A stretch of DNA of 43,331 nt, taken from positions 1 to 43,331 of the IMG/VR virus record IMGVR_UViG_3300044824_000342. One strand, written 5' to 3'. Below the pieces are notes generated by a model. That model did no database searches, was not told where the DNA came from, and saw nothing but the letters and a program-made list of their open reading frames with translations. Source of the stretch: a virus. This document shows, piece after piece, positions 8,684-43,331 of the stretch. The first letter of the stretch is position 1. Each line of letters opens with the position of its first letter. Both the position numbers and the translations under genes were made by a program.

Positions 8684-8698
8684 AGAATCGAGGCACCA

Positions 8699-14531: not shown

Positions 14532-14707
14532 CGACCTCTCTCACCAGGACCGTCGTTGCCGAGACCAGAGCCGAGCTCGAGGTCCTTGTCCAACAGGCGA
14601 TTGCTCACGGGTGGGTGCGCATTGGTAACCCGAACCAACTCCTGATCGGCGGCAAGCAAGTCGAGGGTCGCGCCAAGTGGCAGCAGGTGATGAGGCGAAA
14701 GAAGTGA
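14528..14707 (+). CDS. Small DUF1737-like protein
   Basis: Fifty-nine residues with the pattern AELEVLVQQAIAHGWVRIGN, a helix followed by a Gly-Trp turn and a strand. This resembles the DUF1737 family of small proteins of unknown function. Twelve of its residues, and the underlying 40 bp, are repeated in the larger gene at 13290-14156. It is the last of the tightly overlapped early genes; about 80 bp follow before the next start. Confidence 0.55.
   Translation: MTTSLTRTVVAETRAELEVLVQQAIAHGWVRIGNPNQLLIGGKQVEGRAKWQQVMRRKK
14595..14634 (+). repeat. 40-bp direct repeat, copy 2
   Basis: It matches 13528-13567 with one substitution. This copy lies in what seems the natural home of the sequence, a small DUF1737-like gene, so it is probably the donor of the copy in the composite gene. 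Confidence 0.93.
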
Positions 14708-14789
14708 ACGCCACAGCGAATGTCCATATGTCAAGAGGAGGTTGACAAAGTGCTTGACAAACGTGAGCGCTCAAGTATCGGAGGTGTGC

Positions 14790-15287
14790 GTGCCTGAACT
14801 CGAAGAGGCGGTCGTCGAGGACATCGTTCGCTGGTACGTGCTCAACAGCGACGCGCCTGCTGGCTCGCTGGCGGTCGTGGTCTTCGGCGTGCGCGGTCCA
14901 AGTTCGGCGCCATGGAACGTGCGCGCGGAGATTGGCGTCGTCCTGGGCGAGTGCCCGTACCGCGTGCCAGCCGGCAACCCATTCAGTCCGACGGCGACTA
15001 TCACCGCGGTCGAGCGGCGGGTGATCGCCGAGGTCGCCTACGAGCGGTGCTGTCGCCAGGTTGGACACCTACAGACCTTGCAGGGCGTGCAGGTTTGGCC
15101 CGAGACGATCGACGCGCAACGCGATCGCGACGTGTGGCATCGAATGGAGCGCCGATACCGACAACATCCAAGCTGGCGACCGGCTATGACTTGGATGCAA
15201 CGCGCGTTCGGTTTCGTCGTGCACGGCGACCCAACGCGCGGCCGCCGCGGCGACGCCTCGTTCCTGGCGTACATCCAGGGGGCTTGA
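14790..15287 (+). CDS. Last early-operon gene; possible late regulator
   Basis: The 165-residue protein has no recognised domain. It begins VPELEEAVVEDIVRWYVL (GTG start, GGAGG five bases before). The first half looks beta-rich (GSLAVVVFGVRGP). The second half is helical and basic with two Cys and many Arg/Trp (VIAEVAYERCCRQVG; VWHRMERRYRQHPSWR). Its position, last before the late promoter and packaging genes, is where many lambdoid phages carry an antiterminator or late activator. That is context only. Its stop codon overlaps the candidate late promoter. Confidence 0.6.
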   Translation: MPELEEAVVEDIVRWYVLNSDAPAGSLAVVVFGVRGPSSAPWNVRAEIGVVLGECPYRVPAGNPFSPTATITAVERRVIAEVAYERCCRQVGHLQTLQGVQVWPETIDAQRDRDVWHRMERRYRQHPSWRPAMTWMQRAFGFVVHGDPTRGRRGDASFLAYIQGA

Positions 15288-15312
15288 CAACGCGAGATGT
15301 GAGCACTAACCT
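15284..15312 (+). promoter_or_regulatory. Candidate late promoter
   Basis: TTGACA (15284-15289), 17 bp, then TAACCT (15307-15312). The -10 keeps the three most conserved positions (T, A and last T). It overlaps the stop codon of the preceding gene and points at the HNH-terminase-head operon. The predicted start is near 15319. Confidence 0.5.
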
Positions 15313-15315
15313 TAC

Positions 15316-15360
15316 TTCGACATCGAGAGGTGTCGAAAGGCCCGGTGAAAACCGGGCCTT
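15316..15360 (+). terminator. Two adjacent RNA hairpins before the late genes
   Basis: Hairpin 1 pairs TTCGACA (15316-15322) with TGTCGAA (15331-15337). Hairpin 2 pairs AAGGCCCGGT (15337-15346) with ACCGGGCCTT (15351-15360) around a GAAA tetraloop. There is no U tract after it, only CGCATTG. It may terminate early transcription, stabilise late mRNA or act as an antitermination element. It ends 8 nt before the HNH start codon, which has no Shine-Dalgarno. Confidence 0.55.
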
Positions 15361-15368
15361 CGCATTGA

Positions 15369-15836
15369 ATGCCGAGATCAGCGCCCCGCCCCTGCCGCCG
15401 GTGCCGCACTGGACTCACGCGCGCGCCCCACGGCTTCTGCGACGCGTGCGCCCCGATCGGCCAGCGCGAGGAGATGCGACTCGCGGACGAGCGGAGGGGG
15501 TCCCGGCAGAAGCGCGGGTACACGGACAGGTGGGCGAAGTACTCGAGGCAGTTCCGGAGGGCCCACCCGCTGTGCGCCGATCCCTTCCAGGTCCACGGCG
15601 AGCTCGGCGCCTTCACGGAGGTCACCGACCACATCGTTCCTCCGTGGGCCGGCGGCAGCTTCTGGCATCCGGGCAACCACCAACCGCTGTGCCAGAGCTG
15701 CAACAAGCGGAAAGCAGCTGCCGATCGCAGCCGCTACGCAAAGGTCAGGGCCGGCGCGACCGGTGCGGCGTCCGCCGCTCCGGGAGAGTTGTTAGTCTTG
15801 TCTTCTCTTACGGGTGCGGGTGCGGGAGATGCGTAA
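15369..15836 (+). CDS. HNH endonuclease next to the terminase
   Basis: The 155-residue protein has an N-terminal CRRC...CDAC zinc module and an HNH core at about 68-120: HPLCADPF, TDHIVPPWAGG, then NHQPLCQSCNKRK. HNH proteins directly before the terminase small subunit are typical of HK97-type phages with cos ends, where they cooperate in DNA cutting for packaging. The last 31 residues (from about 125) are encoded by the inverted repeat copied from the replication gene, read on its opposite strand. The original C-terminus has therefore been replaced or extended. No Shine-Dalgarno precedes the ATG. Confidence 0.85.
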   Translation: MPRSAPRPCRRCRTGLTRAPHGFCDACAPIGQREEMRLADERRGSRQKRGYTDRWAKYSRQFRRAHPLCADPFQVHGELGAFTEVTDHIVPPWAGGSFWHPGNHQPLCQSCNKRKAAADRSRYAKVRAGATGAASAAPGELLVLSSLTGAGAGDA

Positions 15837-15894
15837 CCTTTGCCGGATTGTTCGGAACTGTTCGAAACAGTTCCTAACGATTCCTTTTCCTTGC
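15741..15894 (-). repeat. 154-bp perfect inverted repeat, copy B
   Basis: Exact reverse complement of 10031-10184. It supplies the end of the HNH gene and most of the 160-bp gap before the terminase genes. The iteron-like units map to 15845-15884 and the A/T-rich stretch to 15785-15810. On the minus strand the frame of the replication linker stays open through the copy and stops just beyond it, at 15734. Confidence 0.95.
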
Positions 15895-15996
15895 TGGGGT
15901 AGGGGGGGTCGAAACTTTTGCGCAAACGGCTCGATCACCAGCGTGTTACGGTCGCGCACACCCACGGGATGATACGAAATTGGCCCAGGATGGCGA

Positions 15997-16794
15997 ATGA
16001 CCACAAAGGGTGACAGCTCGCGCCCGTTCCGCCTGGTTGGGGATGGCGGCAACGGGGACGGCTCCCTCCCGGAGCATTGGCCATGCTGCCCGGACTACCT
16101 CTCGGAGACGCAGCGCCGGAGGTTCTATGCACTCTGCCAGCGGCTCGAGGATCACCAGCTCCTCGAGTCGGCCGACGTCGGCGACCTCGAGGCCCTTGCC
16201 GTGGCGGAGGACAACCTCGAGCAGGCGTGTCTCGCCGTGAACCTCGCCGGCAGGTACGTCACGACGGAGAAGGAGGGGCGCCCATACCAGTGCCCCGCGT
16301 GCAAGGGCTCCGGGGTGCGCCCGCTGCCTCGCGGGCGCGAAGGGGATCCCGCTCCTGCTGTCCATCCTCGCAAGCCAACCGGCCGTCCGTGTTCGACTTG
16401 TACGTCCCCAAACCGGGCCGAGATCGACTCGGCCCTCGGTCGTGGCGAGTCATTCGGGAGCGTTTCGAAACGTTTTGAAACGCCGAAGGGGACCCTGTTT
16501 CGCCACAAGCGCAACCACCTCGGGAAGCCGGCCACACCGGTGCTTGTCGACCCGGCAGACCGGACGTGCCTCGGCTGTAGGGGCCTCGGCGTGATCGTCC
16601 CCAAGACCACGGAGATGGTGGCCAGGCGTCCCGAGGTTGGGGACCAACGGAAGGCCATCGACCAGATCGCGATGCTCTCGGCCAAGCTCGGGCTGGACGT
16701 CACCTCACGAGCGCGGGTCAAGGGCAGCGCGGGCACCCGGAAACCGACCTCAAAGCTCCAGGAGATCCGAAGCCGCCGTGCGATACGCGAGTAA
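15997..16794 (+). CDS. terS: Terminase small subunit, P27 family, with inserted zinc/HTH module
   Basis: The 265-residue protein recognises phage DNA and starts packaging with the large subunit. The P27-type halves are at about 25-92 (YLSETQRRRFYALCQRL ... ACLAVNLAGRYV) and 205-250 (RKAIDQIAMLSAKLGLDVTS). Between them is an extra module: CPACKGSG (99-106), CSTCTSPNR then an HTH-like segment ending RHKRNHL (133-175), and CLGCRGLG (191-198). The CxxCxGxG pairs resemble DnaJ zinc fingers. P27 proteins are usually about 150-170 residues without this insert. AGGA precedes the ATG. Confidence 0.78.
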   Translation: MTTKGDSSRPFRLVGDGGNGDGSLPEHWPCCPDYLSETQRRRFYALCQRLEDHQLLESADVGDLEALAVAEDNLEQACLAVNLAGRYVTTEKEGRPYQCPACKGSGVRPLPRGREGDPAPAVHPRKPTGRPCSTCTSPNRAEIDSALGRGESFGSVSKRFETPKGTLFRHKRNHLGKPATPVLVDPADRTCLGCRGLGVIVPKTTEMVARRPEVGDQRKAIDQIAMLSAKLGLDVTSRARVKGSAGTRKPTSKLQEIRSRRAIRE

Positions 16795-18709
16795 CCCGAT
16801 CGTGGACGCCTACGTCGCCGGCGTCCTGGACGGGAGTGTGCTTGTCAACGAGCTCGCGCGCCTCGCGATCGAGCGGCACGTTGCGGACCTCGATCGCTGG
16901 CCGAGCATCGTGGTCCGCGGCATCACACCCGAGGAGACCGCTGCCGACGTGTCGGCAGCCCGCGAGGCGGCACGCGCCCGCGGCGACGAGTTCTACTTCG
17001 ACGAAGATGCCGCCCAGGCCTTCCTCGATTTCTACACCCTATGCCGGCACGTGGAGGGCGAGCTCGCCGGCCAGGAGTTCGTGCCGCTCCCGTACCAGGC
17101 GGCGGTCGACTGGATCAGCCACGGGTGGATGCGCACCGCGACCGGCAGCCGCCGGTTCAAGGAGCGGTGGATCGAGGAGCCCCGCGGCAACGGTAAGTCC
17201 TTCTGGCAGTCCTGCCACGAGCTCGGGATGATCGTGGCCGACCAGGAGCCCGGGGCCAAGGCCTACTCTCTCGCGACTGAGAAGCAGCAGGCCGCCGCGG
17301 CCGTGTGGGGAATCGCCGCAGAGATCGTCCGCCAGTCCCCGGACCTGGTCGAGGAGCTCGAGGTCCAGGACAGCTTCAACAACCACCGTATCTTCGTGCC
17401 GGGTACGGGCTGCGAGTTTCGGCCCCTCAAGTCCGACCCGAAGCGCGCCGACTCGCTCAACCCGCACTCGATCTCCTGCGACGAAGTGCACGAGTGGCCG
17501 AAACGCGAGCTCTACACGAAGCTGCGCACGGCCATCGGCAAGCGCCGCCAGGCGATGCTCACCAACATCACCACCGCCGGCGACGACCGGCCTGGGACTG
17601 TGTACGAGGAGCTCCACGACCACGCGGTGCGCGTCCTCCGCGGCTGGCAGGACCGGTCCTTCGAGGACAACGAGTTCTTCGCGATCGTCTTCGCCATCGA
17701 CAATCAGGCCGACGGGTGCGACGAGGACGCGGACGCGTATGACGAGGGCAACCTCTACCGCGCCAACCCGGCGCTCGGCCACCCGGGGACCTCGGTTCGG
17801 ATCGAGTACCTGCGCAGCATGGCGAACCGGGCCCGCGTCGAGCCGGAGGTCGAGCGCGACTACCTGCGCCTCCACCTTGGGCGCCGCGTCTCGGCAAAGG
17901 TCAAGCCGATCCCGGACGAGCAGTGGAAGGAGTGCGGCGCGCCGTCCCGCCTCGAGGGTCTCCTGGTGGCGGGAGGAGAGCAGGGTCCCGAGGCCGTGCT
18001 GGGTGCGGAGACGGCCCGGATCCTCCGGTTGCTCGGCCATCGCGAGTGGTCGGCGTTCGACAGCCGTCCGTGCTTTGCCGGGATCGACCTCTCATCGTCC
18101 CGCGACCTGACGGCCCTCACCCTCTACTGGCCGCCCTGGGCGGAGTGGCCGTTCGAGACGTACCGCTTCTTCGCCTGGTTGCCGCAGGAAAACCTCGAGG
18201 AGTGCCACCAGCGCGACCATGCCCCGTACGACCAGTGGGTGCGCGAGGGGTGGCTCGAGCTCACCGCCGGCGACGAGATCGACGAGGAGTTCGTGCTCAA
18301 GCGCGCCGTCGAGGTGAGCGAGAAATACGCGGTGATTCAGTGGGCCTACGACCCCTGGCACGCGGTCAGGCTCCAGCACGCGATGTTCGCCGCAACCGGG
18401 ATCGAGATGGTGAAGTTCGTGCAGAACCTGCCGAACTTTGGCGAGCCAACGCAGCTCTTCCTCGACAGCGTCAAGGGCAAGCAGCCCAAGCTCATCCACG
18501 ACGGCAACCCTCTCGCTCGCTGGTGCGCAAGCAACCTCGTCACCAAGGAAGACGCCCACGGCAATAAACGGCCGCACAAGAAGCTGTCCAACTACCGCAT
18601 CGACCCGATCGTGGCCGCCATCATGGCGCGCGGACGCGCGATCGTGACGCCCACCGCGCCGCCTAAAGGCTCGATCTACGAGGACCGCGGGGTCAGGTTC
18701 TTCGGATGA
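16778..18709 (+). CDS. terL: Terminase large subunit
   Basis: The 643-residue packaging motor and nuclease belongs to the Terminase_1/HK97-like group. Walker A-type PRGNGKS is at about residues 135-141, Walker B ISCDEVHEW at about 232-240, and a coupling-type motif is LTNITTAG. The nuclease domain opens with FAGIDLSSSRDLTALT (about 433) and continues with YDPW and the late Asp of RIDPIVA. GTG 16778 is chosen because it overlaps the small-subunit gene by 17 bases and begins conserved sequence (VRYASNPIVDAYV). The Shine-Dalgarno is weak, so translational coupling is likely. Confidence 0.93.
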   Translation: MRYASNPIVDAYVAGVLDGSVLVNELARLAIERHVADLDRWPSIVVRGITPEETAADVSAAREAARARGDEFYFDEDAAQAFLDFYTLCRHVEGELAGQEFVPLPYQAAVDWISHGWMRTATGSRRFKERWIEEPRGNGKSFWQSCHELGMIVADQEPGAKAYSLATEKQQAAAAVWGIAAEIVRQSPDLVEELEVQDSFNNHRIFVPGTGCEFRPLKSDPKRADSLNPHSISCDEVHEWPKRELYTKLRTAIGKRRQAMLTNITTAGDDRPGTVYEELHDHAVRVLRGWQDRSFEDNEFFAIVFAIDNQADGCDEDADAYDEGNLYRANPALGHPGTSVRIEYLRSMANRARVEPEVERDYLRLHLGRRVSAKVKPIPDEQWKECGAPSRLEGLLVAGGEQGPEAVLGAETARILRLLGHREWSAFDSRPCFAGIDLSSSRDLTALTLYWPPWAEWPFETYRFFAWLPQENLEECHQRDHAPYDQWVREGWLELTAGDEIDEEFVLKRAVEVSEKYAVIQWAYDPWHAVRLQHAMFAATGIEMVKFVQNLPNFGEPTQLFLDSVKGKQPKLIHDGNPLARWCASNLVTKEDAHGNKRPHKKLSNYRIDPIVAAIMARGRAIVTPTAPPKGSIYEDRGVRFFG

Positions 18710-18861
18710 GCGAGCAAGGGAAGTCGCTCACGGCCGACGTGCTCGCCGGCCTCGGAGTTGTGTGCCTGTCGGCTGGCGCCTGGATGATCTACACGCCCGC
18801 CGGCCTCCTTGTCGGAGGGGCCTTGCTCATCCTCATCGGCGTCAAGCTGGAGCGTGCCTGA
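18706..18861 (+). CDS. Small two-helix membrane protein between terminase and portal
   Basis: Fifty-one residues with two hydrophobic stretches (VLAGLGVVCLSAGAWMIY and GLLVGGALLILIGVKL) separated by a short Pro-Gly turn. Tiny membrane proteins are common at exactly this place in HK97-type packaging operons, with unknown role. It overlaps the terminase stop by four bases and its own stop shares a base with the portal ATG. Confidence 0.65.
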   Translation: MSEQGKSLTADVLAGLGVVCLSAGAWMIYTPAGLLVGGALLILIGVKLERA

Positions 18862-20435
18862 TGGGCCTCCTCGCCCGAAGCCTGCGCGTCGAGAAGCGAA
18901 CGGTGCTGGAGAGCCTCAAGGGGATCGCCCCGTCGCTGTGGGACCAGCTCCACCTCACCTCGGCCGCGGGCCCCATCGTCACGGAGCTGACCGCGTCCAA
19001 GTCCACGGCGGTCCTGGCGTGCACCCGGGTCATCTCGGAGACCACGGCGTCGCTCCCCCGGCGGGTCTGCCAGCAGCTGCAACCGGCGGGCAAGCGCGCG
19101 GCGCCCACCCACCCTCTCTTCCGCATCGTCCACGACAAGCCGAACCCGATGATGACCTCGTTCACGTTCTTCGAGACGCTCCAGGCGCACCTCTGCATCT
19201 GGGGCAATGCGTACGCGGAGATCGTGCGGAACGGCAACGGCGAGGTGGCGGAGCTCTGGCCGATCCCGCCGGCGCGGGTGACCTCGATCTGGCTCGACTG
19301 GAACCTGCACCAGATGCAGTACCAGATCATTCTCCCGGACGGCCGGCCCATCGTCCTGACCAGCGACCAGATCCTCCACGTGCCCGGCCTTTCGTTCGAC
19401 GGGTTCCTGGGCAAGTCGCCGGTGCGCCTCATGGCCGAAACCATCGGTCTTTCGCTCGCCGCCGAGGAGTTCACCTCGCGCTTCTTCTCCAACGGCGCCC
19501 AGCTTTCCGGCGTGGTCCAGCACCCGGGCGTCATGAGCGATCCGGCGGCGCAGCGCTTCATGAAGAGCATCGAGGAGAAGCACACGGGCCTCCCCAACGC
19601 CTTCCGGGTGATGCTGCTCGAGGAGGGGGCAAAGTGGCAGGAGACCGGCATGAAGCTGGTTGAAGCCCAGGTCCTCGAGCTGCGGAAGTTCCAGGTGGAG
19701 GACATCGCGAGGGCCTACCGCGTCCCCCTCCACCTCATCCAGGCGACTGATAAGTCCTCGAACTGGGGAACGGGGATCGAGCAGCTCACGATCGCCTTCG
19801 TCACCTACTGCATGCGGCCGTGGATCGTGCGGTGGGAGCAGGCCCTCCAGAAGCTGTTTCCCCCTCAGGACACCGCGCAGTACTTCGTCGAGTTCCAGTT
19901 CGACGCCCTCATGCGTGGCGACTACGCGTCCCTCACCAAGGGGCTGCAGCTCGGGCGCGTGAACGGCTGGCTCAACGCGGACGAGATCCGCGAGGCTCTT
20001 GGCTACAACCCGATCGGAGGCCCTGCCGGCCAGGACTACATCATCGCGCTCAACATGGGCGCATCTGGCCCCGTCGTTGAGGGGACCGACACGGAACCTG
20101 AGACCGACGTGCCGGACTCCAACCCGGACACGCGGGCGCCCGGTCGAATCGTCATGGTCAACGGGGTGCACGTTCCCTCCAACCGGGGCACGCGCGCGGG
20201 CGACTTTGGGCCCCTCCTCGACGCGGCCTGGGAGCGCATCACCCGCCGGGCGAGCCAGGAGGTCGGGGCGGCAATCGAGAAGGCCATCAAGAGCGGCGAG
20301 GACCCGGCCGTCCGGCAGACGATCTCCGGCTGGCTGATGGAGCACCGCGAGTACGTGGACCAGCAACTCGGGCCGATCGTGGCCGCCGGCTGGCGGCCTG
20401 GCAGCAACGGAGGCGGAAATGGCGCGCATCCCTGA
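18861..20435 (+). CDS. HK97-family portal protein
   Basis: The 524-residue protein forms the dodecameric ring at the capsid vertex through which DNA enters. Family landmarks are the N-terminal TALACTRVIS-like segment (here STAVLACTRVISETTASLPR), NPMMTSFTFFETLQAHLCIW and GNAYAEIVRNGNGEVAELWP. Further in are GKSPVRLMAE, the clip/stem region with ARAYRVPLHLI, and the crown ending in IREALGYNPIGGPAGQDY. The last 100 residues are an extra helical extension. ATG 18861 shares a base with the previous stop. Confidence 0.93.
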   Translation: MGLLARSLRVEKRTVLESLKGIAPSLWDQLHLTSAAGPIVTELTASKSTAVLACTRVISETTASLPRRVCQQLQPAGKRAAPTHPLFRIVHDKPNPMMTSFTFFETLQAHLCIWGNAYAEIVRNGNGEVAELWPIPPARVTSIWLDWNLHQMQYQIILPDGRPIVLTSDQILHVPGLSFDGFLGKSPVRLMAETIGLSLAAEEFTSRFFSNGAQLSGVVQHPGVMSDPAAQRFMKSIEEKHTGLPNAFRVMLLEEGAKWQETGMKLVEAQVLELRKFQVEDIARAYRVPLHLIQATDKSSNWGTGIEQLTIAFVTYCMRPWIVRWEQALQKLFPPQDTAQYFVEFQFDALMRGDYASLTKGLQLGRVNGWLNADEIREALGYNPIGGPAGQDYIIALNMGASGPVVEGTDTEPETDVPDSNPDTRAPGRIVMVNGVHVPSNRGTRAGDFGPLLDAAWERITRRASQEVGAAIEKAIKSGEDPAVRQTISGWLMEHREYVDQQLGPIVAAGWRPGSNGGGNGAHP

Positions 20436-23337: not shown

Positions 23338-23592
23338 ATGCGGGTCAAGATCGTCGAACCAACCAGCGCCAACGGGCACCCGGTCCACGTCGGCGAGGTC
23401 CTTGAGACCGACGACCGGTCGGGGCACCTCCTCATCGGGCTCGGCAAGGCGGTCAGGGTCGAGGCTTCGGGGCTGACGTCCGCGGCGCCGGCCGAGGCGC
23501 CTGAGGTCGAGACGGCGACCGACAAGGCAGCCGAGAGCGCCGTCGAGGAGGGGCAGCGACGCACGAGGTTCCGTCCTGGAGGGCGCCGGTGA
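23338..23592 (+). CDS. Small head-region protein
   Basis: The 84-residue protein starts MRVKIVEPTSANGHPVHVGE, a beta unit ending around LIGLGKAVRV (about 40). A Pro/Ala/Glu-rich, probably disordered tail and a basic end follow. Short proteins with this VKIVEPT...GKAV pattern occur beside capsid and decoration genes in HK97-type phages. Exact function unknown. Its stop overlaps the first glycosyltransferase start by four bases. Confidence 0.6.
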   Translation: MRVKIVEPTSANGHPVHVGEVLETDDRSGHLLIGLGKAVRVEASGLTSAAPAEAPEVETATDKAAESAVEEGQRRTRFRPGGRR

Positions 23593-24383
23593 AGATCCGG
23601 CGCAGGGCGAGCGGCCTGTACCTACCGGACGGGGAAACGCGCGCCCAGGGCGCCCTCTCCCTGCCAGGGGAGTTTACCGGCCTGATGATTGCCGTCCCGG
23701 CCTACGGGAGCACCCTGCACACGTCGTGCGCGAAGTCGATCTGCGCGGCAACCGTCCAGATGGCCGTTCTCGGGGTCCCCACCGACACCTGCTACCTGGT
23801 CTCCGAGAGCATGGTGACCCGCGCGCGCGACCAGATCCTCGCGGTGTTCATGGGACTCCCTCAATTCAGTCACGTCCTGATGGTCGACTCCGACGTCGAG
23901 TTTCCGCGCGAGGTGCCCCTCCGGCTGCTCTCCGACGCCCGCGTCCACGACATCGTGATGTGTGCCTACCCGCGGAAGAAGCAGCCGATCGGCTTCCCGC
24001 TCATTTGGACGCCGGAGCAACTCGCCGCCGGGCTCAACATCGACCCACGGACGGGGTGCGTGGAGCTCGAGGCGGGGCCCGCCGGATGCCTGATGGTCTC
24101 GCGCGTCGCCGTGAAGAAGCTGATGGACGCGCACCCGGAGCTCAAGTACACGGCCGACCAGCCCTACGACGAGCACCGGTATGCCCTCTTCAACCCGTTC
24201 ATGGAGGGCGACAAGCTCTGGAGTGAGGACATCACCTTCTGCAAGCGCTGGCGCGCCCTCGGAGGTTCGATCTGGTTGGACCCCTACTTCGACCTCACCC
24301 ACTGGAGCGGCTCGGTGCCGTTCAAGGGGCACGTCCTCGACGTGTTCGAGACAGAGGAGAAGAAGGCGGAGGCGGCGGGATGA
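23589..24383 (+). CDS. Phage GT-A fold glycosyltransferase (1)
   Basis: The 264-residue protein is likely to transfer a sugar from a nucleotide donor to a virion or DNA acceptor. A Rossmann-like start (LMIAVPAYGSTLHTSC) is followed by ESMVTRARDQILAVFM and the metal-binding DxD in LMVDSDVEFP (about 98-101). Then come YPRKKQPIGFPLIW and a late SEDITFCKRWRALGG. This is the phage group of GT2-like enzymes. It is translationally coupled to the small head protein and to a second glycosyltransferase, inside the structural operon, which points to head or tail protein glycosylation (inference). Confidence 0.8.
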   Translation: MKIRRRASGLYLPDGETRAQGALSLPGEFTGLMIAVPAYGSTLHTSCAKSICAATVQMAVLGVPTDTCYLVSESMVTRARDQILAVFMGLPQFSHVLMVDSDVEFPREVPLRLLSDARVHDIVMCAYPRKKQPIGFPLIWTPEQLAAGLNIDPRTGCVELEAGPAGCLMVSRVAVKKLMDAHPELKYTADQPYDEHRYALFNPFMEGDKLWSEDITFCKRWRALGGSIWLDPYFDLTHWSGSVPFKGHVLDVFETEEKKAEAAG

Positions 24384-25015
24384 GCAGCCCCGCATTGATC
24401 TCCCTGCTGCTGCCGACTCGCCATCGCGCGGACGAGTTGCGCCGAACGCTCGACGGTCTGGAACGCGCGGCCGCCTGCCCGGAGCTCCTCGAGCTGCTCG
24501 TGTACGCCGACCACCACGACGCCCCCACCCTCGCGGTCCTCTACGAGTTCTCCTGCCAGGCCATCGTCGGCCGGAACGACGGGTATTCCGAGCTGCCGCG
24601 CCTCATCAACGAGATGGTCGAGCTCGCGACGGGCGACTGGCTGTTCGTCTTCGCCGACGACGTCGGCTGCGAGACCCCGGCCTGGGACGACGTCATCCGC
24701 CGCTACGACCACACCGTGCCGGCCCTCCTCACCTGCGAGAACAACCAGGGCAACGACTTCTGGTTTCCGGTCCTCTCGCGCCCGGCCTACGAGGCGATGG
24801 GTTGCGTGACGCGGAGCCAGTTCCACGACATCTGGCTCGGCGAGGTGTTCAGGAGGGCGGGGTGCCTGGTTCACCGGAGGATCCCGGCCCGCTTCACCGA
24901 CCGGATCGTCTGCCCGATGTCGATGGACCGGCTTTCGCCGGATGAGCGGTCGGCGTTCGACCGGAGCGTCGACGAGGCGGCCGCGAGGCTCGCAGCGCCC
25001 GGAGGGACCCCATGA
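24380..25015 (+). CDS. Phage glycosyltransferase (2), GT2-like
   Basis: This 211-residue GT-A type protein has LISLLLPTRHRADELRRTLD at the start, LLVYADHHDAP, GRNDGYSELPRLINEMVELA and the acidic metal motif FADDVG (about 91-96). A short acceptor half follows, with HDIWLGEVFRRAG. At about 210 residues it is close to a minimal catalytic domain. It is coupled by ATGA to glycosyltransferase 1 and to the connector gene. The two could act in series on the same glycan, or on different virion proteins. Acceptor and sugar are unknown. Confidence 0.78.
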   Translation: MSSPALISLLLPTRHRADELRRTLDGLERAAACPELLELLVYADHHDAPTLAVLYEFSCQAIVGRNDGYSELPRLINEMVELATGDWLFVFADDVGCETPAWDDVIRRYDHTVPALLTCENNQGNDFWFPVLSRPAYEAMGCVTRSQFHDIWLGEVFRRAGCLVHRRIPARFTDRIVCPMSMDRLSPDERSAFDRSVDEAAARLAAPGGTP

Positions 25016-35051: not shown

Positions 35052-35693
35052 GTGACGGCCTTCCTCAACTACCCGCTGCCCGACTACAACTCGAAGAACA
35101 AGGAGGCCTGGCAGAACACGTTCATCAAGGACGACATGGGGAAGGTGATTCAGACGCGAGCCAAGGGCCGCACGTCGCCGTTCTGGACCGTGACGTTGAT
35201 CTACCTGCGCTCGCTCAGCGACCCCACGATGGCCTTCAACATGTCTGTGTTCCGGAGCTCGCTCCGTGCGCTCCAGGGCGGGGCGCAGCCGTGCTACTTC
35301 TACACCCCCTTGCCATGGGACTGGTGGGACAACGCACAGGCTGGGATCGGCGACGGCAGCACACTCGTCTTTCCGTTCGGCGGCTGCAACCTCATGCTCG
35401 CCCAGCTCGCCCCGATCGTGTTCGTCAATGGGACAGCGGTTCCACAGTACGCCATCGGCGGTGGCAGCGTCGTCCCGATCTGGACGGTCGCCGAGTTCCC
35501 GGGGGACGCATACAACCGCTGGGCGATCACATGGGATCCGAGCGCGGTGCCGGCCGTCGGGGCGCAGATCACCGTCTCCTTCATGGGGTGCAGGCTCCTA
35601 CTCGGCAGCCTGATCCAGGACCCTGGCGAAGTCACGGCGCCCGGTTACGCGCAAGAGTCGTTCCAGGTGGTTCTCCAGGGCGAGGAGGTCTGA
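35052..35693 (+). CDS. Distal tail / minor tail protein
   Basis: The 213-residue beta-rich protein (start MTAFLNYPLPDYNSKNKEAW) has the hallmark of minor tail proteins in this place: strands around PFWTVTLIYLRSLSDPTMAF, the aromatic YFYTPLPWDWWDNAQAG and the closing VSFMGCRLLLG. It resembles DUF2460 or lambda M-like proteins, but the match is by layout rather than strict motif. A GTG start lies one base after the gpL-like stop, behind the stop-overlapping GGGAGG. Confidence 0.65.
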   Translation: MTAFLNYPLPDYNSKNKEAWQNTFIKDDMGKVIQTRAKGRTSPFWTVTLIYLRSLSDPTMAFNMSVFRSSLRALQGGAQPCYFYTPLPWDWWDNAQAGIGDGSTLVFPFGGCNLMLAQLAPIVFVNGTAVPQYAIGGGSVVPIWTVAEFPGDAYNRWAITWDPSAVPAVGAQITVSFMGCRLLLGSLIQDPGEVTAPGYAQESFQVVLQGEEV

Positions 35694-35695
35694 CG

Positions 35696-37654
35696 GTGAG
35701 CGCCCGGATCCGTCCGCACCTGAGCGGCGCGACGCCGGCGCCCCCCGTGGTAACCCCGGTCGTGACGCCCACGGCCACCGCGACCACGGTTCCAGGCGCC
35801 TCGCAACCGACCACCCGCGACGTCACCCTTGAGATCTCCGACACCGCCATGGGCACCATCATCCCGATCAACCTCGGGAAGTTCTACGCAACCTTCAAGA
35901 TCGTGCACTTCGACCTCCCGAACAACAGCACGCTCGAGATGATCGCTCTCATTGGTGAGGGCCCGATCGACGCTGTCGAGGGGATCTGGATCGACTCCAC
36001 GCCGGTCTACGGCACCGCGCTTACCCTCGGCCAGACGACCCCGCTCACGGTGCCGAGCTGGGTGGAGAGCATCGTGATCCGCACGGGGACCCCGGGCCAG
36101 ACGCCCCCGGGGAACATCACCAACTCGACCATCGCGCAGCTCGCGTGGCCCGGCTTCGCGTACGTGAGCATCCGGCTGAACCTCCAGACGGCGGCCATCA
36201 GCGGCGGCCTCCCGAGGGTCACCATCTGCGGCCGCGGCCTGTTGGGCTGGAACTTCGGCGACGCCGCGCTGCCGGCGCCCGACCTCCCGCTGTGCTGGAG
36301 CGAGAACCCGATCGGCCTGCTCTACGCCCTCATGAGGTCGCCCGACTTCGGCTGCGGCCTCTCGAAGGCGATGTTCGACGTGCTGGAGAACACGCCCGGC
36401 AGGAGCTGGTACGACGCGGCCCTCGCCTGCGACCAGGTCGCAGACAGGCTCACCGTTCAGCCGGTCGGAAACACGACGACCAACGCGGCGGTCGGGGGCA
36501 ACCCCGGATCGTTCAACCAGCACGGCCAGGCGTTCGCCGCCGTCAACGACTCCTTCGCCATCCAGGTCAAGCTGAAGGTTCTCAACCACGGGGTCGACGG
36601 CAAGGGCTGGCCGGACTTGCTTTCGCTGCGCGCGAGCTGGTGGGGCTCGCCAAGTCCGCTGTGGCCCGTAGGCCGCCTCGGAGGATCGAGCCCTGGGTGG
36701 ACGTGCAGCCAGGACGGGAGCACGCCGCTCGTGCCCGTCCCGATCAACGGCCCCGGCGACTACTACCTCACCGCGTGGTATGGCAACGATCTCAATGAGA
36801 TGAACAGCGGCAGGGTGTTCACGACCGGGATGCAGCTCATGCTCTCGCTCGCGGAGAACGCCTCGGTGCAGTGGTACGCGAACACGCTGAGCGGCGGCTT
36901 GGCGCTGCCGACGTCCGCGGACACCATCGACTCGTATAACCACGAGACGCTGGTGACGGGAAACATGTGGTACCAGACGGCGGTCGCCGAGAAGTCGTAC
37001 CGCCTGGAGCTCATCGTCACCCAGCGCCAGCCGATCGAGCAGGTCGTGACGCCGATCCTCCAGGTCTGCAACGGCCGCTGGGGCGTGTGGGACGGCCTCT
37101 ATCGCGTGAGTATCGACGACAACGCGGCGGCGCCGACCATCACGATCTCGGACCAGGAGTCGGACAGCCCGGACATCCTCATCACGCAGGACACGCTGCA
37201 GTGCACCCGGAGCACGCCGGACGTCCCCAACGTGGCGATCGGCGACTTCATCGACACCATGACCTGGGACCGCGAGGAGGTATCAGTCGCGTGGCTGACG
37301 GTCACCGAGGGCCTGGACCAGTTTCGCGAGCTCCGCTTCTCGTGTCTCGCGGTCCCCAGCGGCGACCAGATGTACCGGTTGCTCTCCACCTGGCTTGCGC
37401 GTGGGCGCCGCACCTGGAAGGCGGCATGCTCGGTTCCGCAGCACGGGATCCGGCTGCGTCCGGGCGACCTCGTGTTCCTCAAGAGCAGGCTCTTCACCTC
37501 GACGAAGACGGTGATGGTCGACACCGTCAAGGACAACACGGCGGGGACATTCGACCTCACCCTCATCGAGTACAACGCCGCGGACTTCTGCACGGTGGCC
37601 TATGTCCCTCAGACGGTCGTGACCACCGTCACGCAGCTCCCCAACACGGCATGA
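35696..37654 (+). CDS. Central tail hub / host-specificity protein, J-like
   Basis: The 652-residue protein has a Pro/Thr-rich start ([19 protein letters not shown]). A J/GTA-hub-like N-terminal domain follows with [20 protein letters not shown]. After [14 protein letters not shown] (about 260) an additional beta-rich domain of about 170 residues interrupts ([18 protein letters not shown] ... [17 protein letters not shown]). The hub then resumes with [20 protein letters not shown] and ends in [18 protein letters not shown]. The insert resembles a lectin-like jelly roll and could bind surface sugars (inference). GTG start at 35696, three bases after the previous stop. Confidence 0.8.
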
Positions 37655-37665
37655 GGGAGACGACG

Positions 37666-39846
37666 ATGAAGCGCTTCGCACTGTTCGTGCTCGCGGCCCT
37701 GGTGGCGGCAGCCGTCGAGGCGGTCACCGTGTCGATCACAATCTCGGGCAACGGCTCGGTCGACGTCAACCAGAACAGCGGCGACCTCGGGAGCTGCACG
37801 ACCGGGACCTGCAACTACAGCGCCTCGAACGGCGACGAGTTTGTGTTCACCGAGACCCCGGGCAGCGGGTCCACCTTCACCTCCTGGACGGGCAGCAAGT
37901 GCAGCGGGAGCACGATCGCGACCTGTATCTTCACGGTGGGGACCTCGGCGATCTCGGACACCGCGACGTTCGCGGCGTACACCCCGACGCCCACGGTCAC
38001 GCCCACCGTGACCACGACGCCGACACCGACGGCCACGAGCACGCCGACCTCGACGCCAACGCCCACGCCGACGGTCACCCCGACGCCGACCGCAACGCTG
38101 GTACCTCTGACGATCACGAACGTCGGCCACGGCGAGACGGACGTCTACCGCTACTTCGGCGGTTATTGGCAGCAGATGCCAGGAGACGAGTGCACGTATC
38201 CGACGACGGTGTGCACCTTCTCCTACTCTGCTGGTGTTGGCATGGAGCTTGTCGCAGCAGGCCAGAGCGGCTACACCTTCACGGGCTGGTCGGGCGCATC
38301 GGGGCTCTGCTCTGGCTCGACATCGCCATGCTCCTTCACCTGGCCGTCGACCGCTGGCTCGGTGACTGCCACCTTCTCCGCCTGGACGCCGACCCCGACC
38401 CCGACCAGGACTGCGACGCCGACGATCACACCCACGAGCACCGCGACGCCCACGGGCGCCCCGACCGCGACGGTCACGCCGACGGTTACCCCGACCGTCC
38501 CGACGCCCACACCGACGGTGACCCCAACGGTCACGCCCTCGGCGACGCCGACACCCACGAGCACGGCCACCAAGAGCCCGACACCGACGGTCACCCCAAC
38601 CCCGACGGTCACGCCCACGAGCACGCCGACCTACACGCCGGGCGGCCCGACGGTCACCCCGACCCCGACCGCGACGACCACGCCGACGAGCACGCCGACA
38701 TCGACGGCGACGCCGACGAACACGCCCACGCCGGCCATCGTCTACCTCGCGGTGCAGTTCAACAGCGGGGCCGCGGGGTCGGTGACGGTTACGATGAACG
38801 GCGTCCCGCTGCGGCTCTGCACGACTCGGGCGTATCCTTGCCTCTATTCGGTCCCGAGTGGCTCCGCCGTCCTGCTCGTCGCCACGCCGGCGAAGCCCGG
38901 CTCCGGTTACGCCTTCACCGGGTGGACGGGCGACGAGTGCGGCGGCAGCTCGAGCGTGAGCTGCTCCTTCTCGATGCCGCTGGCGACCACGACCTGCCAG
39001 GCGAACTTTGCGAGCGCCACGCCGAGCCCGCTGCCGACGCCATTCCCGCTGTCGACGCCGACGGTCACCCCGACCGCGACGATCACGCCGACGGCCACGC
39101 CGATCCCGACGGGCCCAACGCCTACCGCGACGCCCACGAGCACGCCGGTGGCCACCTGGACGCCTTCGGCGACGCCCACGATCACGCCGACGAGCACGGC
39201 GACCCCGACGGTCACCCCGACCGCGACCGCGAGCAGTGGGTGCGGAAGCTGCCCGACGGCGACCCCGCAGCCCGCGCCGACCTTGGTCCCGACGGCGACA
39301 CCGCAGCCGACCTGGACGCCGTCGCCGACCCCGAGCATCACGCCGACGAGTACGGTCACCCCGACGCCGACCGTGACCCCGACCTCGATCCCGCCCACGC
39401 CGCAGCCGACCGCGACGCCCATCAACTACGCGGGATCCTATGCCTTCACCGGCACCCTCACGGGGGGCAACCCGAGCAACACGAGCACGACGTATGGCAC
39501 GATCATCACCGGCGGGTCGTGGACCACGACCAGCACGAACGGGCAGGCAACGGCGCAGGTCGCGGGAACGGCGGAGTACCTCACGGTCACGATCGGCGCC
39601 GCACCCGGCCTCGGCAAGTCGTACACGTTCACCCTGGAGAAGAACGCTGCGGACACGGCGATCACCTGCCAGATCACCGGGACCACCGCGACGAGCTGCA
39701 CCGACCTTGCCCACACGGCGACCTTCGCCGCAACCGACAAGATCAACATGAAGTGCGTGCCTGCGAGCTCGCCGGCATCCATCACAGGGGTGCTGACGAC
39801 GACGTGGACCTTCGCGACAGGCGCGAGCGGTCTGCCGCTGCAGTGA
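37666..39846 (+). CDS. Secreted Thr-Pro-linker protein with three InlB-like repeats and tail-fibre-type C-terminus
   Basis: The protein has 726 residues. A signal peptide is clear ([20 protein letters not shown]). Three related domains of about 85-90 residues follow: [11 protein letters not shown]...[26 protein letters not shown]...[24 protein letters not shown]...FTGWTG. Each has Cys pairs and the GWxG turn of InlB/Flg_new-like repeats. Long TPTPT linkers separate them. The last 130 residues ([20 protein letters not shown] ... [17 protein letters not shown]) resemble phage tail-fibre ends. A Sec signal on a tail-like protein is odd: it may be exported, surface-anchored, or only look like a signal. 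ATG 37666 follows GAGGGAG. Confidence 0.75.
37979..38100 (+). repeat. Thr-Pro linker repeat DNA (1)
   Basis: GC-rich imperfect repeats of ACGCCGAC / ACGGTCACC type encode Thr-Pro-Thr-Val-Thr-Pro units between repeat domains 1 and 2 of the secreted protein. Confidence 0.85.
38388..38735 (+). repeat. Thr-Pro linker repeat DNA (2)
   Basis: The longest of the three Thr-Pro tracts, about 350 bp of imperfect ACGCCGACG / ACGGTCACC units, lies between repeat domains 2 and 3. Long antisense open frames rich in Val and Gly over this stretch are artefacts of the repeat. Confidence 0.85.
39010..39424 (+). repeat. Thr-Pro linker repeat DNA (3)
   Basis: About 415 bp of imperfect Thr-Pro-coding repeats separate repeat domain 3 from the tail-fibre-like C-terminus. 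One CGSCPT Cys pair is embedded in the middle. Confidence 0.85.
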
Positions 39847-40190
39847 GAGGAGGGGTGACGGGAAATCTCCGGCGTGTCGTGCGCGGCGCAGCGTTCTGGG
39901 CCCTCGTGACGGGCGTGGCCTGGGTGATGGGCTCGAATGCGGCTGCGGACGTCGGCGCGGCGCCGGGGCAATTGTTTCTTGACCAGCTGGACTTCTTCAA
40001 GATCTCCATCACTGCCTTGTTCGGGTTTGCCATCTGGTCGGCTCGCCGGATCCTCCTTGGCATCGACAAGAAAATCGACCTCCTCTTCTCTCGGACGGAG
40101 AACACCGAGCGGGAGCTCGCGCGGCTCCAGGGCGAACACGATGCCCGGACCGAGCCGTGCACACCACTGAAAAGGCGTAGGGGGGACTGA
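39843..40190 (+). CDS. Holin-like membrane protein
   Basis: The protein has up to 115 residues. The GTG at 39843 overlaps the previous stop; GTG codons at 39855 and later are alternatives, and the AGAGGAGG at 39846-39853 is too close to use easily. Two hydrophobic segments ([20 protein letters not shown] and [20 protein letters not shown]) are followed by a charged coiled-coil-like helix ([20 protein letters not shown]). Position directly before the endolysin, and one-base overlap with its ATG, suggest a holin or holin partner (inference). Confidence 0.6.
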
Positions 40191-40690
40191 TGGGAGAGTC
40201 ACCGCGCGCGGCGTTCATGCGCCGCGCCCTCGAGTCCGCCGATCGCGCGCGGGCCGGCGGAGCTCCGATCGTCTCGTCGATCGCCGCCTCGCAGGCCGCG
40301 CTCGAATCCAACTATGGCGCCAGCCGCCTCGCGTTCGACGGCTGCAACCTCTTCGGCGTGAAGGCCGGCCAGAGCTGGCAGGGCCATACCCTGAGCCTGC
40401 CGACGACCGAGATCGAGAACGGCCACCCGATCACGGTGCAGGCGACCTGGCGCGTGTACGGGAGCTGGGACGAGTGCTTCACCGACTATGGTCGGATCAT
40501 CGCCTCGCATCCCTGGTACGCGCCGGCCCTCGAGGCGGCCGCCAGGAACGACGCGCTGGGGTTCCTCGAGGGGCTCCTCCCGGTCTTCGGAGCCGACGGG
40601 AGCGTCGTGAAGATGGGCTGGAGCACCAACCCGGCGTACCGCGACAGGGTGCTGGCGATCGCCACGCAGTGGGGTCTCCTGACCGCCTAG
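40190..40690 (+). CDS. Endolysin, glucosaminidase (GH73/FlgJ-like)
   Basis: The 166-residue protein cleaves peptidoglycan glycan chains at the end of infection. The family core runs from IVSSIAASQAALESNYGAS, with the probable catalytic Glu at 39, through NLFGVKAGQSWQGHTLSLPT, FR-type VYGSWDECFTDYGRII and HPWYAPALEAA, to YRDRVLAIATQWGLL. There is no signal peptide, so release depends on a holin, which fits the membrane protein encoded just before it. The ATG at 40190 shares a base with that gene's stop, and GGGG precedes it. Confidence 0.85.
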   Translation: MGESPRAAFMRRALESADRARAGGAPIVSSIAASQAALESNYGASRLAFDGCNLFGVKAGQSWQGHTLSLPTTEIENGHPITVQATWRVYGSWDECFTDYGRIIASHPWYAPALEAAARNDALGFLEGLLPVFGADGSVVKMGWSTNPAYRDRVLAIATQWGLLTA

Positions 40691-40719
40691 CGCGATCGAG
40701 AAAGTCGAGGTAAGTGACG

Positions 40720-42108
40720 ATGCACGTCCAAGCAGCCGCGGTCCTCGTGTTTCTGTCCGCTGGCCTGGCAGCAGCCCAGACACCCACGCCGACGCGAACC
40801 GTGACCCCCACGGCCGCGCCCACGAGGACACCCGCACCCACGCCAGCTCAGTGCACGGCGGGGTACTGCCGCCACACCGACGGGAGCTGCTCCGCGGTGA
40901 TCCCGCCACCGCTCGGGAGCGGCGTCTGCAGCGGCACCGACGTCTGCGTCTCGCTGGCGTCGTGCGCCACCCCGACCCCGACCAGGGCGCCGACAAGTAC
41001 GCCGACTGCGACGGCCACAGCGACCCCGACCGGTCCTCCGGCAACCGCGACGCCCACGCCCCCTCCGATCGCCTTGACCAAGGCAGCGGCGCCACCAATC
41101 CCGGTCACGTACTCCCAGCAGTGGTGGGACGAGATGACTCCGGACGGGACGAGCTGGCACGAGGACCTCAACTGGGGCCACTACGCGGCCGACGACACCG
41201 TGCCGCCCGCCCTCGGCACGACACTCCAGGTGCACTCGGAGTGCCTCGTCCACACGGACGGCGCGACCCTACGCACGAGGGAACTGCGCTGCACCTGCCG
41301 CGACACCCTCGACGGCTACGAGAACGGAGCTCCAGAGCTGACGCTGTGGCCGGACGGCACTCTCTTCGGCGTCGCGGAGTACACGCGGCGCTTTGCCAAT
41401 CGCGCGTTCTCGAACGACCAACACGACGTCGTGATCGAGCGCATCGGCCTGGCGGCGAAGCCGCATGGGGTCACTAGCTACGTCGACGACCCCTGGCCGT
41501 ACATCGCCGAGGACTGGATCAGCGTGCCCGGGAGCAGCTACTTCACCGAGGGGATGGTGGACCTGCACGGCCAGCACTACGCCTACTACCAGGTGTGGCT
41601 TACGCGGGCGGTCCCACAGGCCGTCGTCCTCGAGCGCTGGCAGATCACCGATACCGGGGTCCCGACCAAGGACCTCGGCTTCGGCATGCCCGTGGTCGAG
41701 CCTGATGGTGGCTTCTCGCAGATCGTCGCCGATCCGTCCTGTGACGGCTGCATGTTCGGGTTCGAATCCGCGTACCCGCCACTTTCTGATGTCAGCGTCT
41801 GGCGGTCGCACGACGAAGGCAGGACGTTCAAGGAGATCGCCTTCGTGATTCCGGCGCCGGCCGGCTCAGTCGGGATCTCCGACTGCCACGCGATGGTCTG
41901 GCCCGGCGGTATCGCGGTATGGCCCGGCTTCGGAAAGTGCCAGACCTACTGGGCGCAGGACGGTGATGACGGGACCGACTGGTCGAAGATGGGCGACCTT
42001 CTGCCCTACACCTGGTCGATGCTGGGCGCGCCGGTGCCGGCGAATTTCAACCTGCCGACGACGCTCTGGGCGCCGCCGACGCCGATTCCAACGGTGACAA
42101 AGCCCTAG
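40720..42108 (+). CDS. Secreted Thr-Pro-linker protein with Asp-box (beta-propeller-like)
   Basis: The 462-residue protein has a signal peptide (MHVQAAAVLVFLSAGLAAAQ) and Thr-Pro linkers around a small Cys-rich module (CTAGYCRHTDGSCSAV ... CSGTDVC). A 330-residue beta-rich domain follows. Its sequence VWRSHDEGRTF fits the Asp-box (SxDxGxxF) of sialidase and BNR propellers, and several HxxW/DDPW loops look like blade turns. It may bind or trim glycans outside the cell or on receptor polysaccharide (inference). The start is ATG 40720, with GAGG 10 nt upstream; GTG 40714 is an alternative. It lies between endolysin and lipoprotein. Confidence 0.7.
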   Translation: MHVQAAAVLVFLSAGLAAAQTPTPTRTVTPTAAPTRTPAPTPAQCTAGYCRHTDGSCSAVIPPPLGSGVCSGTDVCVSLASCATPTPTRAPTSTPTATATATPTGPPATATPTPPPIALTKAAAPPIPVTYSQQWWDEMTPDGTSWHEDLNWGHYAADDTVPPALGTTLQVHSECLVHTDGATLRTRELRCTCRDTLDGYENGAPELTLWPDGTLFGVAEYTRRFANRAFSNDQHDVVIERIGLAAKPHGVTSYVDDPWPYIAEDWISVPGSSYFTEGMVDLHGQHYAYYQVWLTRAVPQAVVLERWQITDTGVPTKDLGFGMPVVEPDGGFSQIVADPSCDGCMFGFESAYPPLSDVSVWRSHDEGRTFKEIAFVIPAPAGSVGISDCHAMVWPGGIAVWPGFGKCQTYWAQDGDDGTDWSKMGDLLPYTWSMLGAPVPANFNLPTTLWAPPTPIPTVTKP

Positions 42109-42126
42109 CGGGCAGAAAGGAACCTC

Positions 42127-42525
42127 ATGAGGAAACTGCAGCTTCTTGTGGTCGCGGCAATGGCTCTTCTTCTCGGGGCCTGCGCCAGTAGCCCGCAGCG
42201 GATCGTGATGAACTCGCTGAACACGATCGCTGCCGGCGCCCAGAGCTCGATGCATGCCATCGGGACTCTCTACATCCAGGATCGCTCGTTCGACGCGGCC
42301 GGAAACGTGACGTCCGTCAACACGAAGACGCCGCTCGTTTCCGAAGCCAACAAGGCGGCGGCAGAAGCGCTCTACAACAAGATCCAGGTCTCCTGTAAGG
42401 CGGTCGCCGCCACACTCGAGACCGCGACGGCAGCGAACGCGGCGAGCCTTACGCAGCCGATCCAGGACCTCGCGGACCAGCTCGCTGCCATGCTCCTCAC
42501 GTTCCAGCACGGAGGTGGCACATGA
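42127..42525 (+). CDS. Lipoprotein
   Basis: The 132-residue protein has a textbook lipobox: MRKLQLLVVAAMALLLGAC, with lipidation of the Cys at residue 19. The mature part is Ala/Ser/Thr-rich and helical, ending TFQHGGGT. AAAGGA precedes the ATG. In lysis regions a lipoprotein can be the outer-membrane spanin subunit, but it is longer and less Pro-rich than lambda Rz1. Surface exclusion of other phages is another option. The next gene overlaps it by four bases. Confidence 0.75.
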   Translation: MRKLQLLVVAAMALLLGACASSPQRIVMNSLNTIAAGAQSSMHAIGTLYIQDRSFDAAGNVTSVNTKTPLVSEANKAAAEALYNKIQVSCKAVAATLETATAANAASLTQPIQDLADQLAAMLLTFQHGGGT

Positions 42526-42722
42526 GTCCGCAACTGATCGCCCTCTTCGTCGCGCTCGCGTCGGAGGCACCGAGCCTCTTCGCGAAGCTCCTGGGGATCT
42601 GGACGAACAACGGCGCGGTCACGGAGCAGGAGATCGCGACCTTCATCCAGACCCAGTGGCCTGGGGCCGACACGTTCTTCCATCCGGCTCCTCCAGCAGC
42701 GACCCCGCCGGTGACGCCATGA
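42522..42722 (+). CDS. Small protein of the lysis region
   Basis: Sixty-six residues: a hydrophobic or amphipathic N-terminal helix (LIALFVALASEAPSLFAKLL), a short polar middle (TEQEIATFIQTQW) and a Pro-rich tail. It overlaps the lipoprotein stop by four bases and the next ATG by four bases. It may be membrane-associated. Role unknown. Confidence 0.55.
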   Translation: MSPQLIALFVALASEAPSLFAKLLGIWTNNGAVTEQEIATFIQTQWPGADTFFHPAPPAATPPVTP

Positions 42723-43090
42723 AAAAGGCCCTCTTGTTTCTGGCTATCCTGGTGCTTCTGGCACTTCCGGTGGTGGCGGTCGCACAGACGCTCCCGGCGC
42801 AGCCGAACGTCAGCGCGGTCCCGGCGTTGAGTTCCGACCCGATAGGATACGTCTCGTTCTACTGGCCCAAGATCCTCGTCGTGCTCGGAACCATCTTCGG
42901 AATCGCCCGCGTCGTGATCCGGTACGCGCCGACTCCGCCGCCGGGAGCGACGGGGCTGTGGCCGATGATCTACGTGTTGATCAATCACGCGGCTCTTCCG
43001 ACGACCAACGCGGCGACTCCGGCAGGGAAGTTCGCCGGTCCGCCGCCTGGACCTCCAACCGCGCCTCCGCCGGCAGCGACCACGACATAG
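42719..43090 (+). CDS. Small exported or membrane protein, Pro-rich tail
   Basis: The 123-residue protein has a strong signal-type segment (MKKALLFLAILVLLALPVVA), a second hydrophobic stretch (FYWPKILVVLGTIFGIARVV) and a Pro/Ala-rich C-terminus (GPPPGPPTAPPPA). It could be an inner-membrane protein with a periplasmic tail, as for an inner-membrane spanin or holin partner. It is the last gene of the long plus-strand late transcript, followed by a terminator-like hairpin. Confidence 0.6.
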   Translation: MKKALLFLAILVLLALPVVAVAQTLPAQPNVSAVPALSSDPIGYVSFYWPKILVVLGTIFGIARVVIRYAPTPPPGATGLWPMIYVLINHAALPTTNAATPAGKFAGPPPGPPTAPPPAATTT

Positions 43091-43135
43091 CGCATCCACC
43101 GGCAGCTTGGAGCTGTCCGGCCTCCTTCTCCTTCG

Positions 43136-43163
43136 CCCCGCCGGTCCTCTGTGGCCGGCGGGG
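43136..43163. terminator. Terminator-like hairpin at the end of the late operon
   Basis: CCCCGCCGG (43136-43144) pairs perfectly with CCGGCGGGG (43155-43163) around a 10-base loop. It lies between the end of the plus-strand genes (43090) and the stop of the converging minus-strand gene (43176), so it could serve both. There is no strong U tract on either strand. Confidence 0.5.
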
Positions 43164-43175
43164 GAATTGTCTGTC

Positions 43176-43331
43176 TCAGCGGGGAAGGTGACGGCGAATG
43201 ATGCGGGGCGGCGGCGCAGGGACCGCCTGCAGGGGGCGCCGGATCCGCGGCTGCAGCTCCGGGCCCGCGACCCGTTGGGCCGGCGCGTTCAGGGCGAACA
43301 GCATGGCTAGGGTGGCAATCAAGGTGAGCAT
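43176..43331 (-). CDS. Small secreted peptide gene, start at the window edge
   Basis: The minus-strand frame begins with the last three bases of the window (ATG). It encodes 51 residues: a signal-like segment (MLTLIATLAMLFALNAPAQ) and a basic Pro/Arg-rich tail. The ribosome site cannot be seen, so the true start may lie further right. It is the only minus-strand gene at this end, and could be a host gene next to a prophage or a phage accessory gene. Confidence 0.4.
   Translation of the reverse strand: MLTLIATLAMLFALNAPAQRVAGPELQPRIRRPLQAVPAPPPRIIRRHLPR

Follow-up and report, generated by a model that had tools for sequence, protein, structure and literature searches.

The gene P0001 lies at positions 37666..39846 on the plus strand of the window, a 43,331-base stretch of viral DNA that was analysed whole (IMG/VR virus record IMGVR_UViG_3300044824_000342, positions 1 to 43,331). 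GC3, codon score, and Pfam matches support it as a coding sequence of 726 aa, and its predicted product is a fibre-like adhesin with a Sec signal. GC3 is 0.81-0.93 across the gene body and 0.73 in the last window scored. Among the forward frames, all three of which were scored for codon usage, that of P0001 ranks first, but one antisense frame is close (0.175 v 0.159), so the frame assignment rests mainly on the domain matches. The phage is temperate, long-tailed, and of a soil type. Its genome has clear Pfam matches to a tyrosine integrase (E 1e-27), a portal, and a prohead protease, together with a 690-aa large terminase that is related to many phage terminases and a tape-measure-sized protein of 1,541 aa with zero cysteines.

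P0001 is tightly packed between tail and lysis genes. The 652-aa J-type tail hub directly upstream (35696..37654, plus strand) matches Pfam Phage-tail_3 (E 8e-7) and, weakly, the PHROG 'central tail fiber J' (E 1.4e-5). The Phage-tail_3 match stops about 30 aa short of the hub's C-terminus, which seems to leave J without a long receptor-binding tail. The 11-base gap from J to P0001 contains a ribosome-binding site, AGGGAG (37654..37659, plus strand), which shares the last base of the J stop and is located 6 nt upstream of the P0001 ATG. Eight bases after the P0001 stop begins a small protein with hydrophobic stretches (39855..40190, plus strand) that had no match in a Pfam search. It is a holin candidate, and it precedes and overlaps the gene for a glucosaminidase endolysin (40190..40690, plus strand; PF01832 E 4e-19, PHROG endolysin E 1e-25). 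The endolysin is followed by a sister gene, P0002 (40714..42108, plus strand), and by a small lipoprotein, MRKLQLLVVAAMALLLGAC, that is a candidate outer-membrane spanin from its sequence (42127..42525, plus strand). P0002 has a signal-like N-terminus, Thr-Pro linkers, and 13 cysteines. It matches no Pfam or PHROG family, and no fold could be assigned to its C-terminal part from a structure model with pLDDT 32. A scan of 35600-43331 for promoters of the sigma-70-like type found none. P0001 looks like a member of a single packed late tail-and-lysis operon, and its late expression is likely given the short gaps that separate it from J and the lysis genes and the lack of a sigma-70-like promoter. 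The N-terminus of the J-type hub itself (35696-35830) is a short Thr-Pro-rich stretch, so Thr-Pro linkers in this phage are not confined to secreted proteins.

Three other regions of the window deserve mention. A 162-nt inverted repeat (98%) at 10031-10192 and 15733-15894 brackets 5.5 kb with the integrase, and this segment has the opposite orientation in IMG/VR contig L005, which may reflect either a true inversion or a join made at the repeat during assembly. Two adjoining genes at 23589-25015 lie amid the structural genes. A match to PF00535 (E 1e-5) identifies the second as a family 2 glycosyltransferase, and the first resembles a glycosyltransferase by eye; the pair might glycosylate virion proteins, possibly on Thr-rich linkers. 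On the minus strand at 3820-4554, a secreted protein with the N-terminus MTRIQVAALTLVLIAAGALA followed by QES... adjoins a repressor-like gene. It has no Pfam match and is a candidate for lysogenic conversion.

Residues 1-19 of P0001 (37666..37722, plus strand) have the make-up of a standard Sec-type signal peptide, with a positive n-region, a hydrophobic core, and small residues at -3/-1 as expected for Sec export and signal peptidase I. A simple rule-based predictor, which was used here for all signal calls rather than SignalP, agrees, with a preferred cut about 3 residues earlier and a preferred start 5 codons upstream. There is no lipobox with a cysteine at +1 of the Llp/Cor type near the cleavage site, and the first cysteine is residue 44. 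Directly behind the signal begins the first of three stretches that match PF18998 (Flg_new_2, a divergent InlB B-repeat) with E 3.2e-17 and 62.7 bits, which exceeds the curated cut-off for this family of 23.6 bits. Repeat 1 (aa 20-106, 37723..37983) and repeat 2 (aa 147-242, 38104..38391) have four cysteines each, and repeat 3 (aa 359-453, 38740..39024; best Pfam stretch 398-450) has five, so that every repeat has at least two cysteine pairs. Thr-Pro-rich linkers lie between the repeats (37984..38103 and 38392..38739, the second of about 116 aa) and ahead of the C-terminal end (39025..39420, with a CGSC pair inside); all of these features are on the plus strand. Threonine or proline makes up 40% of the residues of P0001, and its 18 cysteines make up 2.5%. 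The first-pass annotation had described a Sec signal, three Cys-paired GWxG-type domains, long Thr-Pro linkers, and a position directly behind a J-like hub, and all four descriptions hold, with the refinement that repeats 2 and 3 contain GWSG/GWTG and repeat 1 the variant SWTG. No N-terminal virion-attachment domain was seen in Pfam or PHROGs, where many phage anchors are uncharacterised. There is also no Lom/Ail beta-barrel domain, as PF18998 is the sole Pfam match at E 0.1. Matches of P0001 to PHROGs and to PDB sequences fall mostly on the Thr-Pro linkers and were discounted.

The last 141 residues (39421..39843, plus strand) form a separate head domain that is highly likely to be a phage fibre end. 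We searched IMG/VR with the fibre-end motif NGxDTAxTC, to which P0001 itself (NAADTAITC) is an inexact match, and built a profile from 11 domains of other phages with the window left out. The P0001 head matches this profile with E 1e-19, compared to E 4.2 for the best of 2,000 shuffles. The same domain forms the C-terminus of two IMG/VR pectate-lyase-type tailspikes without a signal (L017 and L018). The tail-fibre-like end proposed earlier from the sequence is confirmed by the profile and by the structure model described next, and the suggested search for this domain on signal-less fibres succeeds with these two tailspikes. An AlphaFold2 model of the head (pLDDT 80, pTM 0.79) predicts a C1q/TNF-like jelly roll. 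Its best match among solved structures is the tail fibre of Agrobacterium phage 7-7-1 (Z 8.8), and the top 50 also include F-BclA (Z 8.7), 4-1BBL, TNF, C1q, the BC2L-C lectin, the phi812 spike, and the RBP of lactococcal phage 1358. The top-ranked matches align 108-132 of the 141 residues with Z 7.4-8.8. In the viral library BFVD, the best matches are stalked collagen-type proteins and tail fibre proteins. The head alone matches no Pfam family and has weak PHROG matches. According to the model, then, P0001 shares the C1q/TNF fold, which does not imply a shared function. These results support the earlier proposal that adhesin-type repeats and an export signal are combined with a fibre end in this gene.

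No second instance of this combination of domains turned up in the collections that were searched. Comparison of the tail half by megablast, and of J, P0002, the head, and one InlB repeat by tblastn, with 50,697 phage records gave no match, and neither did IMG/VR peptide scans with P0001, J, the head alone, or P0002. A terminase search recovered a 65% relative (L007) and two contigs that are nearly identical, and all three stop short of the P0001 gene. In L007, two small signal-bearing genes (8668-9069 and 9690-10220), one of them with Thr-Pro linkers, flank a head-tail connector-like gene, which suggests that accessory proteins of the head region may have export signals as well. A terminase profile found no match in bacterial genomes that would name a host. 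The methyltransferase was rejected for this purpose as too mobile, with matches in many phyla and the best to Acidobacteria palsa_272 at 71%.

In the textbook view, the fibres of tailed phages fold and attach within the cytoplasm, and cytoplasmic fibres are poor in cysteine. To see how often fibres have signals, we applied the rule-based predictor to IMG/VR loci that were pulled by an independent motif, TKxATTxYV. A canonical signal is present in 5/76 fibres with an intact N-terminus and in 12/536 other ORFs (one-sided Fisher p = 0.048). The first-pass statement that fibres normally have no signal peptide is therefore right for 71 of the 76 sampled fibres and fails for five, including those of L184 and L181. 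In L184, the signal is joined straight to a podovirus tailspike attachment domain that is 47-58% identical to those of the Xanthomonas PBR31, Rhodoferax P26218, and Manatee Spring phage tailspikes, which begin at this domain and have no signal. The signal-bearing fibre of L181 is directly behind a baseplate J gene (PF04865 E 6e-9). Contigs with the InlB motif have runs of large genes with signals. In L129, baseplate J (PF04865 E 7e-14) lies a few genes ahead of a 3,397-aa signal-bearing gene, after which comes a beta-helix and InlB protein that also has a signal. Three of the seven InlB pattern matches (L024, L026, and L029) are due to chance and are not B-repeats. The most extreme run seen is in L127 (IMG/VR 3300044679_000013, 9987-19736), where five Sec-signal genes lie on the minus strand with one signal-less gene among them, and one gene of the run has InlB B-repeats and 48 cysteines. 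A literature search that covered few subscription journals found no paper on the Sec signals of tail fibres as a class.

Cysteine content suggests that the signals on fibres are functional. The median cysteine content of the mature part is 1.70% in the five signal-bearing fibres and 0.12% in the other 71 (p = 0.0023), a correlation within a small motif-picked set that is uncontrolled for host group. Within contigs that have signal-gene runs, cysteine makes up 1.98% of signal-bearing proteins versus 0.97% of other genes (p = 1e-4). P0001 (2.5%) and P0002 (2.8%) fit the signal-bearing pattern. Such an excess would be expected if the signals work and deliver these proteins to an oxidising compartment, and export of P0001 is judged likely. 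P0001 also has an internal GTG with a ribosome-like site at codon 22. A dual start that yields a signal-less version was rejected as a general mechanism since it is found in 1/21 signal-bearing genes.

Genes of comparable type exist in three cultured phages. Xanthomonas phage PBR31 orf035 has the N-terminus MKKLIALFSLFCTSAFGA followed by TLNP... and lies between the tail spike and the holin. Burkholderia phage BcepC6B gp19, annotated as a tail fiber protein, lies between gp18 and the holins, has an N-terminus of the orf035 type, and is related to orf035 across most of its length. Gene 24 of Rhodoferax phage P26218 (P26218_24) has the N-terminus MKHLRKLIQLIGLFVLCFSAQA followed by QYVS... and is immediately ahead of the lysis genes. 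Ordinary tail fibres of Pectobacterium and Klebsiella phages share the C-terminal half of orf035, and one of these fibres was inspected and has no signal. When orf035, the one protein of the three that was compared, was set against the P0001 head region, no relationship was detected. PBR31 and BcepC6B each have a signal-less spike besides the signal-bearing protein, so the latter need not be part of the virion. Proteomics for these phages or for P0001-type proteins was looked for and not found.

The reading with the most support, at an estimated probability of roughly 0.45, is that P0001 is a late-made, Sec-exported, disulphide-bonded adhesin of the fibre type that most likely docks near the tail tip. 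Judging from the gene packing, it would be co-transcribed with the tail hub and the lysis genes. Its signal would then direct it to the periplasm. There the cysteine pairs in its three InlB-type repeats could oxidise, consistent with the cysteine excess. The C1q/TNF-like head might trimerise three chains, so that a beaded Thr-Pro stalk carries a head for binding; the model supports the fold, and the trimer is expected from the fold class. Finally, lysis may free P0001 beside new virions, on which it could become a receptor- or glycan-binding appendage, most likely near the tail tip. This last step is the least certain, and it would suit a J hub that appears to have no long receptor-binding extension of its own. 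The fibre reading as a whole is supported by PBR31, BcepC6B, and P26218, in which a beta-type gene with a signal again separates the spike from the lysis genes. Docking to the virion is its weakest link and has slightly less than an even chance. L184, L181, and L129 speak for docking, as does the short J hub. Against it count the PBR31 and BcepC6B proteins that are extra to a spike, and the fact that no attachment domain was recognised in P0001. Because tails normally assemble in the cytoplasm, an exported protein also should not meet them before lysis.

The main rival to the virion-fibre reading is that P0001 is exported late and acts free of the virion as a receptor mask. On cells and debris alike, it would bind surface glycans or the receptor that the phage itself uses. 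It would block superinfection and keep progeny off lysed envelopes. Phage T5 Llp has such a role in principle. An export signal, cysteine pairs, binding-type domains, a late operon position, and the missing attachment domain all suit a mask, as does the comparable protein that PBR31 and BcepC6B have in addition to a signal-less spike. However, Llp- and Cor-type masks are small lipoproteins, and P0001 is large and has no lipobox. The L184 signal, moreover, sits on a virion-attachment domain of a tailspike itself. We regard a mask as possible but doubtful; an exclusion or decoy role, as raised in the first-pass annotation, is also possible.

It is improbable that P0001 is instead a surface adhesin of lysogenic conversion that is expressed from the prophage and displayed by the host. 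There is a precedent in lambda lom, which is flanked by the genes for the tail spike (J) and the tail fibre, encodes a signal peptide, and is expressed in lysogens (PMC12309495). The integrase shows that the window phage is temperate, and InlB repeats with Thr-Pro linkers resemble bacterial surface proteins. Against this stand a head that belongs to fibres, the absence of a Lom/Ail match, and the 11- and 8-base gaps, which are too short to hold a separate promoter and make expression in lysogens less likely. Production specifically by lysogens, as had been suggested from the sequence, is consequently not supported for a gene wedged between J and the lysis genes with no sigma-70-like promoter. 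Least probable of all is an ordinary virion fibre that is never exported and has a signal-like N-terminus that is unused or serves as a hydrophobic docking peptide, since the head domain, the gene position, and the internal GTG would fit, but the cysteine excess of signal-bearing fibres points to an oxidising compartment and internal starts are so rare among such genes.

The virion-fibre reading of P0001 can be extended to a speculative generalisation, which we consider rather unlikely at present. There may be a class of tailed phages of Gram-negative hosts with receptor-binding fibres that are made as Sec pre-proteins, acquire their fold and their disulphides in the periplasm, and are not added to the particle until lysis, with P0001 as one member. 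If so, the assembly of tailed phages would not be wholly cytoplasmic. Fibre-type genes with a signal and many cysteines are a minority and occur in mutually unrelated phages. Either such fibres mature outside the cytoplasm or free exported binding heads act on the cell surface, and both would be unusual. The question is testable because cultured phages carry such genes. It also matters for annotation, as some 'secreted carbohydrate-active' genes of soil viruses may be fibres and not metabolic genes.

None of the parts of P0001 is new by itself: InlB repeats are known, and so are fibre heads of the C1q-like type and genes behind J that encode a signal. The fibres and tailspikes of L017, L018, and L022 have the same C-terminal C1q/TNF-like head as P0001, but L017 and L018 are of the pectate-lyase type with no export signal, and ordinary fibres have few cysteines. 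The environmental loci L025/L129, L126/L027, and L127/L028 share with P0001 the Sec signal, cysteine-bearing PF18998-type repeats, and runs of fibre-like genes with signals, although beta-helix or other modules replace the Thr-Pro stalks and the end domains differ. PBR31 orf035, BcepC6B gp19, and P26218_24 are similar in their Sec-type N-terminus, beta-type character, and place after the spike and before holin or lysozyme genes. They differ in having no InlB repeats or Thr-Pro stalk and in following a podovirus spike, where P0001 follows a J hub. Lambda Lom also has a signal peptide and is placed after J (PMC12309495), but it is an outer-membrane beta-barrel, in contrast to P0001 with its repeats, stalk, and fibre head. 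The BclA-type proteins of the Bacillus exosporium likewise combine a flexible repetitive stalk with a C1q-like head. Their stalk is collagen and they occupy the spore surface, so that this analogy is one of shape only.
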